Below, one piece after another: positions 26,406 to 60,903 of a stretch of DNA of 64,000 nt. The translations under genes and the position numbers were made by a program. The notes below the pieces were generated by a model. It saw only the letters and a list, made by a program, of their open reading frames with translations, had not been told where the DNA came from and ran no database searches. Positions within the stretch are counted from its first letter, which is position 1, and every line of letters starts with the position of its first letter. The DNA is from Hyphomicrobiales bacterium (GTDB lineage Bacteria; Pseudomonadota; Alphaproteobacteria; Rhizobiales; Xanthobacteraceae): NCBI GenBank assembly GCA_017305715.1, contig JAFKKG010000037.1, positions 26,522-90,521 on the forward strand, read 5' to 3'.

Positions 26406-26413
26406 CGCCGGAG

Positions 26414-26566
26414 TCAGAAAAAGCCTGGGCTCAGATCCAGACCGTAGGTCATCATCAGTACGGACACGAGCAAGCCGGCCGCGGCAAACAGCACGAGCTG
26501 CTTCAACACCTCGATGTCGTTGATCGTGATGAACACGCGTGACAGCGCGCGCGCGATCGTCGTCAT
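26414..26566 (-). CDS. 50-aa single-span membrane protein
   Basis: ATG at 26566 with GGAGGT seven bases upstream. It reads as a short basic helix (MTTIARALSRVFITINDIEVL), one membrane helix (KQLVLFAAAGLLVSVLMMTY) and an acidic tail ending SPGFF. Strong RBS and good codon use support a real gene. Function unknown; similar tiny membrane proteins occur widely in Bradyrhizobium-like genomes. Confidence 0.7.
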   Translation of the reverse strand: MTTIARALSRVFITINDIEVLKQLVLFAAAGLLVSVLMMTYGLDLSPGFF

Positions 26567-26758
26567 TGGTGACCTCCATGCGTTTAACCCGACTGGCGCA
26601 CGGATAGGTCAATCTGTCGCAGTTGAATGTGAGCTACGTCACCTATCACGCAAACGTAGGTCGGAGCGCTTCCAGCGAAAGCCTGTCCCGCACCTGCGGA
26701 ATTGCGTATTTCCAAAACGCGATGCCGCGTGTGGCGATGCGGCAGGTCACGACCCGCT

Positions 26759-27469
26759 TCACCGGCGCTGCGCCGCGAGCTTGCGGTAGAGTTTCTCCAA
26801 TTGGATCAGGTGCGCTTCCATCGCCATTGTCGCGGCATCCGCATCCTTGGACTTGAAACATTCGATGAGGCGATACCTGATCGGCATCACGAATTTCGGC
26901 GGCACCAATCCCGCAGAACGAACGAACTGGAGGATCATTTCGCTGACGGCGTCGTTAATGAGCGCGATCACCGGGTTCTTGGCCATATTGCCGAGCAGGT
27001 GATAAAACTCGAGATTTAGCCGCTGCCGACCTTCCAGATCGCCGATCGCGATAGCCTCTTCCGCCCTTCGAACGTTTTCCTCCAGATGGCGAATGTCGTC
27101 GGACGTGCACCGAAGACATGCCAACCGAACGATGGTTGGAAGCAAAATGACACGTGCTTCGGTCAAATTCTCCGATGAAATGCTGCCCAGGTGAAACAGA
27201 TCGACGATGACGGAGCGAATCGCCGTGCCGCCATCCTGGCTGATAAATGCTCCGCCGGAAGGGCCCTTCCTGACGTCGACGAGCCCGACTTGCTTGAGTG
27301 ACGTAATTGCCTTGCGGATGGTATTTCGACTTATCCCCAGCGCATCCGCGAAGTCGCGTTCGGTCGGAAGCCGATCGCCCTTGGCAAGCGTGCCGCTGGC
27401 AATCATTTGCCGCACCTGAGCGACGATTTGCTGCGAAGGATTGTCGCCGGTAACCTTCTTGAATCGCAA
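26759..27469 (-). CDS. GntR-family (FadR/FCD-type) transcriptional regulator
   Basis: 236 aa. The N-terminal winged helix reads QQIVAQVRQMIASGTLAKGDRLPTERDFADALGISRNTIRKAI (about residues 13-55), the GntR signature. The all-helical C-terminal FCD-type ligand domain runs from about 85 (SSENLTEARVILLPTIVRLAC, then RAEEAIAIGDLEGRQRLNLEFYHLLGN). FCD proteins bind small carboxylates or acyl-CoA-related ligands. It is divergent from the first CoA-transferase gene, and a perfect ATGGGT-N-ACCCAT palindrome lies between them. It very probably represses the whole module and is released by a pathway intermediate. Confidence 0.92.
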   Translation of the reverse strand: MRFKKVTGDNPSQQIVAQVRQMIASGTLAKGDRLPTERDFADALGISRNTIRKAITSLKQVGLVDVRKGPSGGAFISQDGGTAIRSVIVDLFHLGSISSENLTEARVILLPTIVRLACLRCTSDDIRHLEENVRRAEEAIAIGDLEGRQRLNLEFYHLLGNMAKNPVIALINDAVSEMILQFVRSAGLVPPKFVMPIRYRLIECFKSKDADAATMAMEAHLIQLEKLYRKLAAQRR

Positions 27470-27641
27470 AACTAATCCTTCCGTCGCTTACGAATTCATC
27501 ATCAGTGTTTACGGCAGTTTGCCTTTGCGCTGAAGGGTTCGGTTCGAAATTTCGCAGCGCCGCCGGCCGAGCTTGACCTATCCACCGTCCGATAAAACGG
27601 GGACCGGCACAACGGTATAGACAACAATTGGCATCCATCTT

Positions 27642-27654
27642 ATGGGTGACCCAT
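27642..27654. promoter_or_regulatory. GntR operator 1 (ATGGGTGACCCAT)
   Basis: A perfect inverted repeat, ATGGGT-G-ACCCAT, lies 98 bp before the first CoA-transferase start and 173 bp before the divergent gntR start. It recurs twice before the second CoA-transferase. Dyads with a TGGGT/ACCCA half-site suit a dimeric FadR-type GntR protein. Confidence 0.8.
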
Positions 27655-27739
27655 TAAGGCTGGCGATCACTCGTGCGAGGCTTGACCGGCCGATGTGCGG
27701 GAACGGACGAACATGTCTGAGCGTGGATAGGAGAGATCA

Positions 27740-28996
27740 GTGAGCTCATTAGGGCAGCGCCCACGCTTTGCCGGGCCTTCGGCCCGGCCTGATGCGCCGA
27801 CCGCGATTGATGGAATTCGGGTCGTCGATTTCAGCCATTTCCTGGCCGGCCCGTTTTGCAGCCTGATCCTGGGTGACCTTGGCGCAGAGGTCATCAAGAT
27901 TGAGAAGCGGGATGGGGGTGACGACCTGCGCCGCTTTCAACCATCGGTGGGGCATGGCCAGGGTGCCGCCTTCATCTGGGGCAATCGCAACAAGAAAAGC
28001 ATTGCACTCGACCTGAAGCAGCCGGACGGCATACAGGTCGCGCGTGATCTCGTCGCGCGCTCTGACGTGTTGATCGAGAATTTCTCCACCGGAACAATGG
28101 AGAGGTTGGGGTTGGGATACGACGCCTTATCCGCAATCAATCCGGGCCTGATCTATTGTTCTATTTCGGCCTATGGCAGAACCGGGCCACTCAGGGACCG
28201 GATGGGCTTTGACCCCATCGTGCAGGCCGAAAGCGGATACGTTTCGCTCAATGGCGACGCCGACGGCTTCGGGATGCGGTCCACATCGTCGATCATGGAC
28301 ATCAGCACCGGAATGATGGCTTGCAACGCGGTGCTGGCTGCTCTGTTTTCCCGGCAACGCCTCGGCAAGGGGCAATTCATAGAGTGTGCCCTGTTTGATC
28401 AAGCTGTCACGATGCTCGGCTTTCACGCCATGAACTATCTCGTGAGCGGGGAGCTTGCACGACGTTCCGGCAACGCGAGCCGTGAGACCGTGCCGACCGG
28501 AGCGTTCCTGGCCTCGGATGGCCCCTTCTACGTCTCTTGCGCGAATGACCGGACCTATCAAAGGCTATGTCGGTCCCTCAACAGGGAAGACCTTGCGGGC
28601 AGTGCCGAGTTTCTTACGAGCAAGGATCGCGTCAAAAATCGCGATCGGCTGCTTGCGACACTCGCGGCGATTTTTGAGAAGCGTCCGCGTGCCGAATGGC
28701 TCGAAAAACTGCGGCAGGAGAGTGTGCCCGCAGGCCCAATCAACAACCTTGCAGAAGCGTTTCTGTCGCCAGAGATGCAGCAACGGGAGCTGGTGAGCGA
28801 AATCGATCATCCAACAGCGGGTCCGATCCCCAACATTGCCCTACCGTTCCGCTTGACGGGCACGCCACTGGCGAACCCGGTTGCGGCTCCACTTCTCGGG
28901 CAGCATACATCGGAGATTTTGCGCGATATCCTTGGCTATGATCAGGCTCGAATCGAAAGCTTGCTTCGATCCAGCGCAGCGGAATCCAGGATTTGA
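27740..28996 (+). CDS. Type III CoA-transferase (CaiB/BaiF/Frc family)
   Basis: 418 aa from the GTG at 27740 with GGAGAGAT upstream. Transfers CoA between carboxylates via an aspartyl-CoA intermediate. Family marks: IRVVDFSHFLAGPFC, GAEVIKIEKRDGGDDLRR, the candidate catalytic Asp187 in SIMDISTG, GKGQFIECALFDQ and a C-terminal TAGPIPNIALPFRLTGTP. The N-terminal 20 or so residues are a variable extension. It is the first gene of the GntR-controlled module; the second CoA-transferase has its own promoter region, so the two may form a heteromer as in BbsEF (inference). Confidence 0.9.
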   Translation: MSSLGQRPRFAGPSARPDAPTAIDGIRVVDFSHFLAGPFCSLILGDLGAEVIKIEKRDGGDDLRRFQPSVGHGQGAAFIWGNRNKKSIALDLKQPDGIQVARDLVARSDVLIENFSTGTMERLGLGYDALSAINPGLIYCSISAYGRTGPLRDRMGFDPIVQAESGYVSLNGDADGFGMRSTSSIMDISTGMMACNAVLAALFSRQRLGKGQFIECALFDQAVTMLGFHAMNYLVSGELARRSGNASRETVPTGAFLASDGPFYVSCANDRTYQRLCRSLNREDLAGSAEFLTSKDRVKNRDRLLATLAAIFEKRPRAEWLEKLRQESVPAGPINNLAEAFLSPEMQQRELVSEIDHPTAGPIPNIALPFRLTGTPLANPVAAPLLGQHTSEILRDILGYDQARIESLLRSSAAESRI

Positions 28997-29145
28997 GGCG
29001 AGACTGCCGAGACGCATGCGCCGGCCTGGAAAGCTCTTTTGTGCCGAATAGCCCGCATCCAGGCCCGCATTCTGCTTGGGTCCCGCGGCGCCAACCCGTC
29101 CCTCACCTGATTGCCGGCAACTAAATCAGAACCAGTGACTTGCCA

Positions 29146-29158
29146 ATGGGTCACCCAT
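29146..29158. promoter_or_regulatory. GntR operator 2
   Basis: ATGGGT-C-ACCCAT, a perfect copy of the palindrome at 27642 (reverse complement of its centre). It lies 61 bp before the second CoA-transferase ATG and 31 bp centre-to-centre from operator 3, about three helical turns. Confidence 0.85.
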
Positions 29159-29176
29159 AGTCTACAGCTCTGATCA

Positions 29177-29189
29177 ATGGGTGACCCAA
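29177..29189. promoter_or_regulatory. GntR operator 3
   Basis: ATGGGT-G-ACCCAA, with one mismatch in the last base, at the 5' edge of the leader of the second CoA-transferase. A GTG frame that starts inside this site (29181) is an unlikely translation start for that reason. Confidence 0.8.
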
Positions 29190-29219
29190 AGATTCTGCAT
29201 TCCAGGGATCGAACTTCAA

Positions 29220-30455
29220 ATGACGGAAACATCGACGGTCGACGGCGGAATGCCCGAGCTGCGTCCTTTGTCGGGGATCAAGGTGATCGACCTGACCAGC
29301 ATGCTCGCGGGCCCATACTGTGCGCGATGGCTGGCTGATCTCGGGGCCGAAGTTGTCAAGATCGAATCGATCGCCGGCGATTACATGCGTAATACTTCGC
29401 CGGTTCGCGACGGGCGAAGCGCCTATTTCGCCCATCTCAATACTGGCAAGCAGAGTGTCGCGGTCGATCTGAAGAAAGAGGCCGGAGTTCGCATCGTCCG
29501 TGAGCTTGCCACGACATCGGACATCGTTCTGGAGAATTTTCGTCCAGGCGTCATGGCTCGACTGGGTGTGGGATACGAAACATTGCGGCAACTCAACCCG
29601 AGGCTGGTGTACTGCGCGATCTCCGGTTACGGGCAGGACGGGCCCGGGTCGGCGAGGCCGGCTTACGCCGCGATGGTCCATGCCTCCAGCGGCTTTGATC
29701 TGGCAACAATGGATGCCCAGGGAGATGCAGTCCGACCGCAGACATGCGGCGTGCAGATTGCCGACGTGCTGGCTGCCGTTTTCGCCTGCACGGCAATTCA
29801 GACAGCCTTGCTGCATCGCAATCGAACCGGCGTCGGACAATGCATCGATCTATCGCTGTTCGATGGGATGCTTAACTTGCTCCCCGCACAGTTCCAGCAA
29901 ACGCAATTTCCCGGCGCCGAGCAAAAACGGCCCTTTTACCCACCGCTGCCCGCACGAGACGGGTTCGTGACCATCATGCCGCTGACGCAGCAAAATTTCT
30001 CGTCGATGTGCAATGCCATGGGGCATGCGGAATGGGTAACAGATGAGCGGTTCAGCACGCCTGGCATGCGCTTCCGAAACTGGCGGCCCTTGATTGAGGA
30101 AATGTCATTCTGGACGTCAAAGCGCAGCGCCGGTGAATGCGAAGATATTTTGGTGCGCGGCGGTGTGCCCGTGGCGCGTTACCGCACCCTGGCCGAGGCC
30201 ATCGTCGACCCTCAGACGGCGCATCGGAAGGTCGTGCATGAAACTTCCGACGGTTCGGGCATGCTGGGCGTGATCGGGCTGCCGTTTCGTTTGTCGGGCT
30301 GCGAGACCTCTCCGGGGAAGCACGTCCCTGACCTCGGTGAACATACCGCCCAGGTCCTCCGTGAGCGTCTTGGATATCGCGATGCGGAGATCGCATCGCT
30401 CCTAACCCTGAATGTCATCGCTTGCGCGGCATCAGCTGATGTTACGTCACCTTGA
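29220..30455 (+). CDS. Type III CoA-transferase, second subunit or paralogue
   Basis: 411 aa from the ATG at 29220; the GTG at 29181 lies in an operator. Same family as the gene at 27740 but divergent: IKVIDLTSMLAGPYC, GAEVVKIESIAGDYMR, candidate Asp182 in QIADVLAAVFAC, and GVGQCIDLSLFDG. It ends LGEHTAQVLRERLGY, a family C-terminus. Two type III CoA-transferases plus an acyl-CoA dehydrogenase recall the bbsEFG set for benzylsuccinate. The substrate here need not be the same. The next gene starts 41 bp on. Confidence 0.9.
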   Translation: MTETSTVDGGMPELRPLSGIKVIDLTSMLAGPYCARWLADLGAEVVKIESIAGDYMRNTSPVRDGRSAYFAHLNTGKQSVAVDLKKEAGVRIVRELATTSDIVLENFRPGVMARLGVGYETLRQLNPRLVYCAISGYGQDGPGSARPAYAAMVHASSGFDLATMDAQGDAVRPQTCGVQIADVLAAVFACTAIQTALLHRNRTGVGQCIDLSLFDGMLNLLPAQFQQTQFPGAEQKRPFYPPLPARDGFVTIMPLTQQNFSSMCNAMGHAEWVTDERFSTPGMRFRNWRPLIEEMSFWTSKRSAGECEDILVRGGVPVARYRTLAEAIVDPQTAHRKVVHETSDGSGMLGVIGLPFRLSGCETSPGKHVPDLGEHTAQVLRERLGYRDAEIASLLTLNVIACAASADVTSP

Positions 30456-30496
30456 GTGGCGACGGTTAAGTCACTAGTACAGGAGAGATACCTTCA

Positions 30497-31633
30497 ATGG
30501 ACTTCAATCTGCCAGCGGAAGCGGAAGAGTTGCGACGATCGGCGCGTGCCGTCGTCGACACCTTGTTGAAGCATGAGCCCGAATTCCACGCGACAAATCG
30601 CGTGCCGGATATCGTGGACGAGACGCTCTGTCGGCTGGGGTATTACGGCCTCGCGATCCCTGAGGAATACGGCGGGTTGGACTGCGACCTTCTGACTTCC
30701 GCTGCCATTCAACTCGAATTGGCGCGCATGCCACCGCAGTTTTGGCCGCTGATCCGCTCGGCGGTAGGGCCGACGCCCCATGCCATCATTCGCCACGGAA
30801 CCAAGGCGCAGAAAAATGAGTGGCTGCCGCAAATTGCGACCGGCGCGAAGCGCGTCTGCTTTGCGCTCACCGAGCCCGGTGGCGGTTCTGACGTCGTCGC
30901 CATGAAAACGACGGCCGTCCGAAAAGGGGACCGCTACATACTTAATGGCACCAAGACCTTCATCTCGAACGCCAACAAGGCGGACGTCATCGCGGTGTTC
31001 GCCTATACGGATCGGAGCAAGGGACGCGATGGCATATCGGCATTGCTGGTTACGCCCGGAACAAAAGGCTTTCACATCAGCAAGCCCATGAAGACGATGG
31101 GCTGGATGGTCGATGGTCTGTTCGAATTGTCGTTTCAGGACTGCGAAGTTCCGGTCGAGAACCTCCTGGGAGAAGAAGGCAAAGGATTTTACTACGCGCT
31201 TGAAGGCTTGAGTGAGGCGCGCCTCAACGTGGGCTGCCAGGCGATCGGGGGCGGCGACATCGCCTATGAGGCAACGCTGAACTACGCAAAGGAGCGCAAG
31301 ACGTTCGGAGCGTCCTTGGCCAGCCATCAGGCCGTACAGCACATGCTCGCAGATATGATGATCGACCAGCACGCCGCACGACAAGTCCTGTTCGAGGCGT
31401 TCTGGCGCGCCGAGCGCGGTGAGGACGTTCGGTTGAAATCTGCCATTGTCAAAGTCTTCTGCACGGAAGCCGCTAACCGGACGGCCGATCGCGCGCTGCA
31501 AATACATGGGGGAGCCGGTTACATCAGCGGCATGATTGTTGAACGGGTCTATCGTGATCTGCGGGTGCTGCGCATCTATGAGGGCGCCTCCGAAATCCAG
31601 CGCAACATGATAGCGAAGCAACTGCTCAGATAA
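30497..31633 (+). CDS. Acyl-CoA dehydrogenase
   Basis: 378 aa. FAD-dependent alpha,beta-dehydrogenation of an acyl-CoA, electrons going to ETF. Motifs: CFALTEPGGGSDV, TKTFISNANKAD, GVGCQAIGGGDIAYE (about 245-260), the GRKTFG-like ERKTFGASLASHQAVQHMLADM, and the C-terminal IYEGASEIQRN, where E362 is in the position of the usual catalytic glutamate. SD-like AGGAGAG precedes the ATG at 30497. It likely oxidises the CoA ester made by the two CoA-transferases. Confidence 0.92.
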   Translation: MDFNLPAEAEELRRSARAVVDTLLKHEPEFHATNRVPDIVDETLCRLGYYGLAIPEEYGGLDCDLLTSAAIQLELARMPPQFWPLIRSAVGPTPHAIIRHGTKAQKNEWLPQIATGAKRVCFALTEPGGGSDVVAMKTTAVRKGDRYILNGTKTFISNANKADVIAVFAYTDRSKGRDGISALLVTPGTKGFHISKPMKTMGWMVDGLFELSFQDCEVPVENLLGEEGKGFYYALEGLSEARLNVGCQAIGGGDIAYEATLNYAKERKTFGASLASHQAVQHMLADMMIDQHAARQVLFEAFWRAERGEDVRLKSAIVKVFCTEAANRTADRALQIHGGAGYISGMIVERVYRDLRVLRIYEGASEIQRNMIAKQLLR

Positions 31634-31669
31634 TCGACGCCGTCGAAAAAAATAATGAGGAAACGTCCA

Positions 31670-32650
31670 ATGTCTCTTGGTTCGGGCTTGTTGAAGGCTG
31701 TCTTGTCGATAGCGATACTCATGAGCGGCGGCGGGATCGCTCATGCCCAGGATTATCCTTCTCGCATCATCACGCTGGTCGTTCCCTATCCGCCGGGCGG
31801 CCCGACGGACACCATCGCCCGCTTGCTGGCCGAGAGGGCGGGCAGGGAACTGAAACAGAAGATCATTGTCGAGAACAAGCCGGGCGCTGGCGGCAACATT
31901 GGCACCAATTCTGTCGCGCGTAGCGCGCCCGATGGATACACGCTCTGTTTGAGCACCAATGGTCCGCTCGCCGGAAATCTGAGCTTGGTCGCGAACATGC
32001 CATACGATCCGCTAAAGGACCTCGCTCCCGTTACGCTGGTCACACAGGTTCCTTCCGTATTAGCGGTCAACCCGTCCGTGAATGCCCTCGATGTGCCCCA
32101 ACTTGTCGACCTGCTGAAGTCGCATCCGTCGCAGTACAATTTCGCTTCCGCGGGTCTGGGAACGAGCTCGCATTTTGCAGGAGAGCTCTTCAAGAGTACC
32201 GCGATGGTTCAAATGGTGCATATCCCGTTCAACGGTGATGGACCATCGCTCCAGGCTGTAGTGGCGGGCCATGTGCAGATTTTCTTCGGCAGCGTGGCTA
32301 CTGCGCTTCCGAATATCGAGGCGGGAAAGCTGCGCGTACTGGCGGTGACGTCGGCCGCGCGTGTGCCGGTATTACCGAACGTGCCAACGCTCTCCGAAGC
32401 CGGCCTGACGGGATTTGATCTGGGTGGTTGGTATGCCATCGTCGCCCCGGCTGGCGTCAATCCAGCCGTGATCGAGAAGCTGAACAAGGCCTTCGTCGTG
32501 GCGGTGCACGACACCGAAGTGAGTGACCGGATCAAGTTGATGGGAGGAATTCCTGTGGCCGGCCCGCCCGGAGAAGTCACGGATCTGATTCATCGAGATA
32601 TTGCCCGGTGGGCCAACATTGCGCGAGGTGCCGGCATCAAGCGAGAATGA
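31670..32650 (+). CDS. Bug-family (TctC-type) periplasmic solute receptor
   Basis: 326 aa from the ATG at 31670, which has GAGGAAA upstream; the ATG at 31655 would add five residues. Signal peptide GLLKAVLSIAILMSGGGIAHA. Mature start DYPSRIITLVVPYPPGGPTDTIARLLAE is the Bug signature, followed by IIVENKPGAGGNIGT and GYTLCLSTNGPLAGN. Such receptors bind carboxylates in the periplasm and usually work with TctAB transporters. No tctAB is in the window, so it is an orphan and may use a distant transporter. Being last in this operon, it points to an imported organic acid as the substrate. Confidence 0.92.
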   Translation: MSLGSGLLKAVLSIAILMSGGGIAHAQDYPSRIITLVVPYPPGGPTDTIARLLAERAGRELKQKIIVENKPGAGGNIGTNSVARSAPDGYTLCLSTNGPLAGNLSLVANMPYDPLKDLAPVTLVTQVPSVLAVNPSVNALDVPQLVDLLKSHPSQYNFASAGLGTSSHFAGELFKSTAMVQMVHIPFNGDGPSLQAVVAGHVQIFFGSVATALPNIEAGKLRVLAVTSAARVPVLPNVPTLSEAGLTGFDLGGWYAIVAPAGVNPAVIEKLNKAFVVAVHDTEVSDRIKLMGGIPVAGPPGEVTDLIHRDIARWANIARGAGIKRE

Positions 32651-32786
32651 CGCGACCGGTATACCTCGTTGGCGGAGTGGACGGTGTGGTTCAACCGCCG
32701 AGCATGGTCCAGTTCTCGGTCTCGTCCGCCCTTGTGAAGGTTTTCGGGATGGAGGTTGCGAGGCGAGAGGTCGGATCACGCCGCTG

Positions 32787-59830: not shown

Positions 59831-59943
59831 GCCTGTTCAGAACTCTTCAGACCCTGAAACAAGGACCTTAAGGGTATCGCTCCGTAGTGTCCATCGAGCC
59901 CGACAAACCGCCGTTCCGGCGATCGGGACGAGGAGGTTCCGTC

Positions 59944-60903
59944 ATGCGCACCACGCATTTGGCTTTGGGACTGCTGACAACGATCGCTCTGTCGTTTACC
60001 GCGCTTCCGGGCAACGCCCAGTCGTGGCCAACCCAAGTCGTGAAGATCATCACGCCATTTCCGCCTGGCAGCGGTGGCGACATCACAGCGCGTCCTTTCG
60101 CCGAAAAGCTCGCGGAGCGGTGGGGGAAGCCTGTCATCGTCGAAAATCGTCCAGGCGCCGACGGCATCATCGCCGCGACCGCGGTGCTCAACTCGAACGA
60201 TGGTCATACTCTCCTCTATACGAACGGGGGACCACTCACGAGCAACCTGCTCGCGCACGCGGGCAGCCTTCCGTACAATCCCGATGATCTGCTGCCGGTT
60301 GCGGCTGCCGCTGAAGTCTACGTAGCGATAGGGGTGCCTGCTTCCCTGGCGACGAGTTCGCTGTCCGAATTTGTGGCGCAGGCACGCCTCAAGCGGGGGC
60401 AGTTCAATTGGAGCGGAACTCCCGGCAGTCTGGACTATCTGGTGCCGGGGTTTTTGAAGCGCGCCGGCATCGATCTCCCGCGTGTCCCATACCGGGAGGT
60501 GACCATGGCGCTGCAGGACCTCTCCCAAGATCGACTCCAATTCTATGCTGCTGCCCTCGCGACCCAGTTGCCGATGGCGCAAACCGGCAAGATCAAGATT
60601 ATCGCGATCACGAATAGTCAACGATCCCCCTTCTTGCCGGACGTTCCCACGGCGCGCGAGTCGGGTTTTCCGGAGCTTGAGTACGAAGCGTTCCTTGGCT
60701 TTTTCGCGCCCCGCGGGATGCCGGCTGAGCTGCGTGAACGCATCGGTGCCGACCTGCACGCGATCGGCGCAGGCGCGGACTTGGCGGGACGCTTCAATGC
60801 GATCGGCATGCGGGTACGAGTCACCTCTCCGGCAGAACTGCAAAAGATCGTCATGGACGAGCGCGCCGCGCTCGCCCGTTACACCCAGGCGCCGCCGCGA
60901 TAG
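59944..60903 (+). CDS. Bug-family (TctC-type) periplasmic solute receptor
   Basis: 319 aa from the ATG at 59944; an upstream frame to 59887 lacks a signal. GGAGG upstream. Signal peptide (LALGLLTTIALSFTALPGNA). The mature protein opens QSWPTQVVKIITPFPPGSGGDITARPFAEKLAERWGKPVIVENRPGADG (region 18-66), the Bug signature, with LLYTNGGPLTSN. Orphan, without TctAB. Paired with an O-methyltransferase gene 36 bp downstream, an uncommon combination. Confidence 0.9.
   Translation: MRTTHLALGLLTTIALSFTALPGNAQSWPTQVVKIITPFPPGSGGDITARPFAEKLAERWGKPVIVENRPGADGIIAATAVLNSNDGHTLLYTNGGPLTSNLLAHAGSLPYNPDDLLPVAAAAEVYVAIGVPASLATSSLSEFVAQARLKRGQFNWSGTPGSLDYLVPGFLKRAGIDLPRVPYREVTMALQDLSQDRLQFYAAALATQLPMAQTGKIKIIAITNSQRSPFLPDVPTARESGFPELEYEAFLGFFAPRGMPAELRERIGADLHAIGAGADLAGRFNAIGMRVRVTSPAELQKIVMDERAALARYTQAPPR

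Follow-up and report, generated by a model that had tools for sequence, protein, structure and literature searches.

A dyad-marked GntR, CoA-transferase, acyl-CoA dehydrogenase and Bug receptor gene set in a Hyphomicrobiales genome

This analysis concerns a five-gene cassette at positions 26759 to 32650 of a 64,000-nucleotide stretch of contig JAFKKG010000037.1 (assembly GCA_017305715.1, Hyphomicrobiales bacterium, Xanthobacteraceae), from a soil bacterium of Bradyrhizobium type; the whole stretch is referred to as the window. The cassette encodes a GntR-type regulator, two class III CoA-transferases (CT1 and CT2), an acyl-CoA dehydrogenase (ACAD) and a periplasmic receptor of the Bug/TctC type, and operator-like dyads mark the leaders of CT1 and CT2. 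Its genes and dyads were compared with those of related bacterial loci, and a role in the breakdown of an organic acid is considered.

Genes and operator-like dyads of the cassette

26759-27469, minus strand: GntR, FCD-type regulator of the FadR subfamily (236 aa, putative TTG start; Pfam GntR 64.1 bits, FCD 66.5 bits)
27642-27654, no strand assigned: operator-like dyad 1, ATGGGTGACCCAT, 86 nt upstream of CT1
27740-28996, plus strand: CT1, class III (CaiB/BaiF) CoA-transferase (Pfam CoA_transf_3 432.7 bits; GNxS loop, Asp187)
29146-29158, no strand assigned: operator-like dyad 2, ATGGGTCACCCAT, in the CT2 leader
29177-29189, no strand assigned: operator-like dyad 3, ATGGGTGACCCAA, in the CT2 leader, its centre 31 bp from that of dyad 2
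29220-30455, plus strand: CT2, class III CoA-transferase (Pfam CoA_transf_3 357.7 bits; Asp182, without a GNx(S/H) loop)
30497-31633, plus strand: ACAD, acyl-CoA dehydrogenase (378 aa; Pfam N, M and C domains; Glu362 in a YEGxSE motif)
31670-32650 (start 31655 or 31670), plus strand: Bug/TctC periplasmic receptor (Pfam TctC 213.1 bits)

The regulator carries both the GntR winged helix and the FCD domain above the Pfam cut-offs, the domain content of the FadR subfamily. CT1 ends 223 bp before the start of CT2. Because the gaps between CT2 and ACAD and between ACAD and Bug are only 41 and 36 bp (the latter 21 bp with the earlier Bug start), these three genes look like one operon. The individual parts of the cassette are ordinary, and the operator is common to a wider family of such gene sets.

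All three dyads share the form ATGGGT-N-ACCCA(T/A) and are confined to the CT1 and CT2 leaders. Dyads 1 and 2 are exact reverse complements of each other across 15 nt, and the centres of dyads 2 and 3 lie about three helical turns apart, a spacing that would suit cooperative binding. A fourth match, with two mismatches, falls at 30032 inside the CT2 gene; the resulting window count of four two-mismatch sites is weak by itself, because at least four were reached in 6 of 100 shuffles. Across the whole 7.45-Mb genome, the exact 12-mer ATGGGTNACCCA occurs at five distinct places, three of which are the window dyads, while the other two lie in a predicted gene (C16:60660) and in a gap approximately 0.7 kb upstream of a Bug gene (C4:74572). 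A chance origin was rejected on this concentration of exact sites, together with the leader enrichment over permuted controls described below.

These coordinates, domains and positions uphold the five gene classes and the three near-identical dyads reported in an earlier note on this DNA; its further claim that the dyads lie solely in the two leaders holds within the window if sites are exact or have one mismatch, and its description of Bug as an orphan agrees with the absence of TctA from the profile matches on its contig.

With at most one mismatch, ATGGGTNACCCA gives 74 rows genome-wide, 37 per strand; with one mismatch, the 37 forward matches exceed the 8 of the reversed pattern. Of 11 other exact or one-mismatch places viewed using a crude gene caller, 10 have the site inside a predicted open reading frame (ORF), which in L163 and L167 means at its start, and one (C4:74572) has it in a gap. 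At C14:41264 (L163:2965), ATGGGTCAACCAT lies close to where another Bug gene starts, with an LmbE-like gene (named by eye) after it, and looks like one more such site.

Pairing of the dyad with a GntR subfamily

When GTDB genomes were scanned using a GntR alignment, 79 loci emerged, mostly from Burkholderiales and Bradyrhizobium, from the best 80 of 148 confirmed stretches; among these best 80, the nearest relative of the window GntR is that of Variovorax sp. J22P168 (53-54% identity). Together with L127 and three fetched clusters (L043-L045), they form a set of 83 loci (1.264 Mb). Leaders were defined as the 430 bp before relatives of GntR, CoA-transferase, ACAD, Bug or enoyl-CoA hydratase genes and comprise 14.2% of the bases.

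Exact copies of ATGGNTNANCCAT number 37 in this set, and 25 of them lie within 400 bp upstream of a GntR relative, a region of 33.2 kb in total; at most one mismatch admitted, the dyad is present in this region at 32 of the 83 loci. Broader dyads of the ATGG..N3..CCAT type were found at 74 sites, 52 of them in leaders, whereas 11 letter-permuted control dyads summed to 60 sites with 12 in leaders. This leader-wide count was made after a weaker strict count upstream of GntR alone, in which ATGGK-N3-MCCAT had 8 sites in the 400 bp upstream of GntR versus 28 elsewhere and was present in 4 of 16 GntR clusters (60% identity); five permuted dyads gave none upstream of GntR and 0-9 elsewhere.

Leaders that are otherwise dissimilar carry the dyad, namely those of the window, of a Variovorax cluster with TTGGGTGATCCAT, and of loci L050 and L052 with ATGGTTNAACCAT, which overlaps a TATAAT-like hexamer read by eye. 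The Variovorax copy lies between CT2 and a GntR relative of 54% identity in strain J22P168. Within the genome under study, the paralogous C40 cluster (GntR 39%, CT2-type 47% and CT1-type 53% identity) carries ATGGGTGAACCAT, and the FCD/CoA-transferase/Bug clusters C28, C11 and C1, with regulators 22% identical or unmatched, have no such dyad in their gaps. Because the dyads are enriched in the leaders of related loci over permuted controls, a regulator-operator pairing, in which the dyad type goes with this GntR subfamily, is well supported at the sequence level. The comparison also favors the earlier proposal that the cassette is one regulated unit marked by operators of its local GntR.

FadR-subfamily sites are described as containing conserved TKGT/ACMA boxes with a GT-AC spacing of mostly 3, in some cases 2, nt (PMC4494728). 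ATGGTNNNACCAT, present in many relatives, fits this consensus, and the window form is a G/C variant. Searches for orthologs of the window GntR matched 3 of 149 genomes at E<=1e-40 and 2 of 385 genomes of the class at E<=1e-45, its own included in both counts. Such a pairing would link an FCD GntR subfamily with a defined operator and with a CoA-transferase/dehydrogenase/Bug set that recurs in Bradyrhizobium and Burkholderiales; for many orphan Bug clusters, regulons could then be predicted and substrates sought in testable ways. Among the titles and abstract openings covered, none described this gene set with its FCD GntR subfamily, subscription journals lying outside that scope.

The paired transferases and the dehydrogenase

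CT1 and CT2 are 35% identical to each other. Asp187 of CT1 and Asp182 of CT2 align with the Asp of the human SUGCT and Brucella CoA-transferase chains, which we take to be the catalytic Asp of class III CoA-transferases; together with the CoA_transf_3 domain, this assigns both proteins to class III, with CoA transfer as their predicted activity. BbsEF is presumably a class III CoA-transferase as well, which fits the PDB entries matched here. In PDB sequence scores, human SUGCT, the Brucella enzyme and Escherichia coli YfdE exceed either BbsEF chain for both window proteins. An AlphaFold model of CT2 (mean predicted local distance difference test score, pLDDT, 79.7; predicted template-modelling score 0.76; low at both ends and at 148-158 and 175-178) gave a concordant Foldseek order, with SUGCT (9br6/9br7) nearest, then the Brucella CoA-transferase, then YfdE, and the BbsEF chains 14th or below. 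Both proteins score far beneath the 750-bit cut-off of the NCBIfam succinate--glutarate CoA-transferase model NF052585 (324.1 and 234.9 bits). An identity as alpha-methylacyl-CoA racemase was rejected on lower PDB scores, and BbsEF was rejected as nearest relative on the PDB scores and structure ranks given above.

The two transferases part at a loop. In an alignment of the two window proteins with 118 deduplicated relatives (>330 residues matched; one own-genome copy of each type), the loop stretch is full length in 36/36 CT1-type rows and shortened in 84/84 CT2-type rows, a split not wholly independent of the loop because rows were typed by their best-matching window protein. Printed CT1-type rows (identity at least 43%) read GNx[S/T], and CT2-type rows mostly R-P-x-[YF]-x-P; the GNx(S/H) loop is kept in CT1 and absent from CT2 and 82 relatives. 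The CT2 model is uninformative on this loop because of its low confidence at 231-240 (mean pLDDT 59). In YfdE, the corresponding loop, GNxH where CT1 has GNxS, lies opposite the active-site Asp, contributed by the partner subunit, and has been proposed to influence substrate specificity (PMC3720670). Since this specificity-linked loop is kept in CT1 and absent from CT2 and its relatives, the two enzymes are probably not interchangeable.

So clean a split raises the question of whether paired class III transferases first load and then relocate CoA. Absence of the glycine loop is thought to favor intramolecular transfer in mesaconyl-CoA transferase, although intermolecular enzymes can also lack it (PMC11659651). 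As a long shot, the loop-bearing CT1 could load CoA from a donor CoA ester onto an imported diacid, and the loop-less CT2 could shift it intramolecularly to the other carboxyl, giving the only regioisomer that is dehydrogenated. CT2 and its relatives would then constitute a large branch of family III made up of intramolecular CoA-transferases, which a GntR family reading ATGG-N5-CCAT would co-regulate in proteobacteria.

ACAD has all three domains above the Pfam cut-offs and retains the YEG glutamate, Glu362, presumably the catalytic Glu; it belongs to the acyl-CoA dehydrogenases. Its nearest relatives found, 75% and 70% identical, both belong to Variovorax sp. J22P168. At E<=1e-135 it was detected in 7 of 298 genomes of the J22P168 neighborhood, J22P168 included, and at E<=1e-140 in 1 of 398 genomes of the phylum, namely its own. 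In the first J22P168 cluster, ACAD (75%) and CT2 (50%) stand beside the GntR relative and TTGGGTGATCCAT; in the second, CT2, ACAD and Bug (53/70/45% identity) follow the window order. Unlike in the window, the genes are split over two places of one contig, a CT1 relative (49-50%) lies approximately 30 kb from the first cluster, and a 4HBT_3 protein follows one ACAD.

Relatives of ACAD (49.6-63.1% identical) and CT2 also occur together on plasmids in five records, from Croceibacterium, Croceicoccus, Novosphingobium and two Variovorax; they are neighbors in Novosphingobium, whereas 10-16 kb lies between them in the other four. At E<=1e-100, the Croceibacterium, Croceicoccus and Novosphingobium plasmids yielded no CT1 relative. 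The Croceicoccus and Croceibacterium surroundings contain electron-transfer flavoprotein, P450, GMC oxidoreductase and aldehyde dehydrogenase genes, a setting that may point to an acid made by oxidation of a methyl or alcohol group.

The earlier note had likened the cassette to bbsEFG of anaerobic toluene degradation, in which BbsEF uses succinyl-CoA and acts ahead of the acyl-CoA dehydrogenase BbsG (PMC10818641). Taken literally, CT1 and CT2 would form an obligate heteromeric CoA-transferase loading a substituted succinate from succinyl-CoA, with ACAD as a BbsG-like partner. This is improbable, although the matching gene classes stand side by side and both transferase types also cluster together in V. 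paradoxus VAI-C, in Variovorax sp. PDNC026, in C40 and in Bradyrhizobium loci L044, L065, L068 and L069. CT1 and CT2 each have their own dyad-marked leader, both keep the Asp, and both are nearer to SUGCT/FRC than to BbsE or BbsF; moreover, CT2- and ACAD-type genes (ACAD approximately 50% identical) occur on the three sphingomonad plasmids that gave no CT1 relative at E<=1e-100. A possible further difference is the absence of the GNx(S/H) loop from CT2. Unlike the bbs system, the cassette contains no hydratase, hydroxyacyl-CoA dehydrogenase or thiolase gene, and no BbsH, BbsCD or BbsAB type was detected in its five genes and five flanking ORFs, the rest of the genome not being searched. The comparison is only partly right, the analogy being one of enzyme classes and not of kinship. 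In anaerobic naphthalene degradation, too, a dicarboxylic acid is handled first by a CoA-transferase, ThnP, and next by an acyl-CoA dehydrogenase, ThnO, but ThnP belongs to family I whereas CT1 and CT2 belong to family III (PMC11659651).

A chance assembly of two independent acid-activation branches under one regulator, with CT1 linked to a Rieske oxygenase and CT2-ACAD separate, would account for the pairing of CT2 with ACAD and for the neighbors of CT1 relatives. These adjoin or sit a few genes from Rieske oxygenase genes as annotated in V. paradoxus VAI-C and Delftia, by Pfam in C40, and by eye at the start of a neighboring ORF in Variovorax sp. J22P168 and Candidimonas. We nevertheless regard such an assembly as unlikely: relatives of CT1, GntR, CT2 and ACAD lie within approximately 27 kb in two Variovorax records, and both window leaders bear the same dyad.

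Origin, proposed role and genomic context

26407-32785, no strand assigned: low-GC cassette stretch, absent from the matching site of the relative G012 (L213)

Guanine-cytosine (GC) content is 58.6% for 26700-32650, compared with 64.3% and 64.0% on the two flanks, and third-position GC is 0.67-0.72 in the cassette versus 0.77-0.85 in the flanks. In G012, 230 bp separate the flanking genes, as against 6.38 kb in the window, and the flanks are conserved (biotin-dependent carboxylase 97%, phosphoenolpyruvate-mutase family 78%, DUF155 87% and GGDEF 84% identity). In relatives L214 and L215, viewed over 20 kb, DUF155 alone of the tested flanking genes was found. Because the cassette is missing at the G012 site and is lower in GC than its flanks, it was probably acquired horizontally; the differing composition favors gain by the window strain over loss in G012. 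Inspection of the cassette borders revealed no recognisable terminal repeat or mobile gene.

On balance, we consider it probable that this is an acquired catabolic cassette, regulated by GntR through the dyads, by which an organic acid is imported, receives CoA by transfer and is dehydrogenated. The regulator would bind the dyads before CT1 and the CT2-ACAD-Bug operon and repress, rather than activate, both, with release by the acid or its CoA ester. The Bug receptor would capture the acid in the periplasm, and its partner permease would be encoded at another site; a class III CoA-transferase would pass CoA from a housekeeping CoA ester to the acid; and ACAD would form the alpha,beta-unsaturated CoA ester, with general beta-oxidation enzymes completing breakdown. 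The acid is perhaps a dicarboxylate or an alicyclic acid, and the dicarboxylate suggested in the earlier note is plausible; the catabolic role that the note proposed is likewise probable.

Several observations weigh against this interpretation. The empty site comes from a single relative, G012. Genes for a permease and for the hydratase, hydroxyacyl-CoA dehydrogenase and thiolase steps are not in the cassette, and a sigma-70 scan identified no promoter-like site at the CT1 or CT2 leader. The window dyad form, ATGGGTNACCCAT, has GT-N1-AC in place of the 3 or 2 nt usual in FadR-subfamily sites. At one mismatch or fewer, ATGGNTNANCCAT is absent from the 400 bp upstream of GntR in 51 of the 83 loci, and many of the 52 leader sites come from near-identical orthologous Bradyrhizobium leaders and are non-independent; one permuted control, GATG, alone has 37 sites, 9 of them in leaders. 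The J22P168 CT2-ACAD-Bug copy (L150:3563-6970) has no ATGGNTNANCCAT dyad at one mismatch and may for that reason be under another control.

Bug is the TctC member alone on its contig, where TctA is absent and TctB was not searched for, so a tripartite transporter is not assigned there. The genome as a whole matches 96 TctC, 8 TctA, 33 CoA_transf_3 and 37 FCD genes. An excess of receptors of this order, together with the non-transport role of orphan receptors discussed in PMC5994714, would fit Bug acting as an extracytoplasmic sensor and not an uptake protein. We give that idea little credence: Bug shares an operon with catabolic genes both here and in Variovorax, and one of approximately 130 tctC genes is reported to be needed for thiodipropionate growth in V. 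paradoxus TBEA6 (PMC8102459). Expansions of Bug-type receptors are known in alphaproteobacteria (PMC5994714). Ten of the 33 CoA-transferase genes have a Bug gene within 5 kb, and seven of these ten also have an FCD gene; with five such clusters, the FCD, CoA-transferase and Bug combination is common in this genome, and a lone Bug is ordinary. The window contains a second, distant Bug/TctC gene at 59887-60903 (C27:86609; 106.6 bits), 30% identical to that of the cassette.

The large C40 cluster (C40:257000-276000; L043, L156) contains the paralogous GntR, an enoyl-CoA hydratase, a long ACAD, CT2-type and CT1-type transferases, several Bugs, a Rieske oxygenase with its reductase, and thiolase-like and AMP-binding genes. 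ATGGTCAGTCCAT precedes the AMP-binding gene, and many Bradyrhizobium loci have a hydratase 90-96% identical to the one here.

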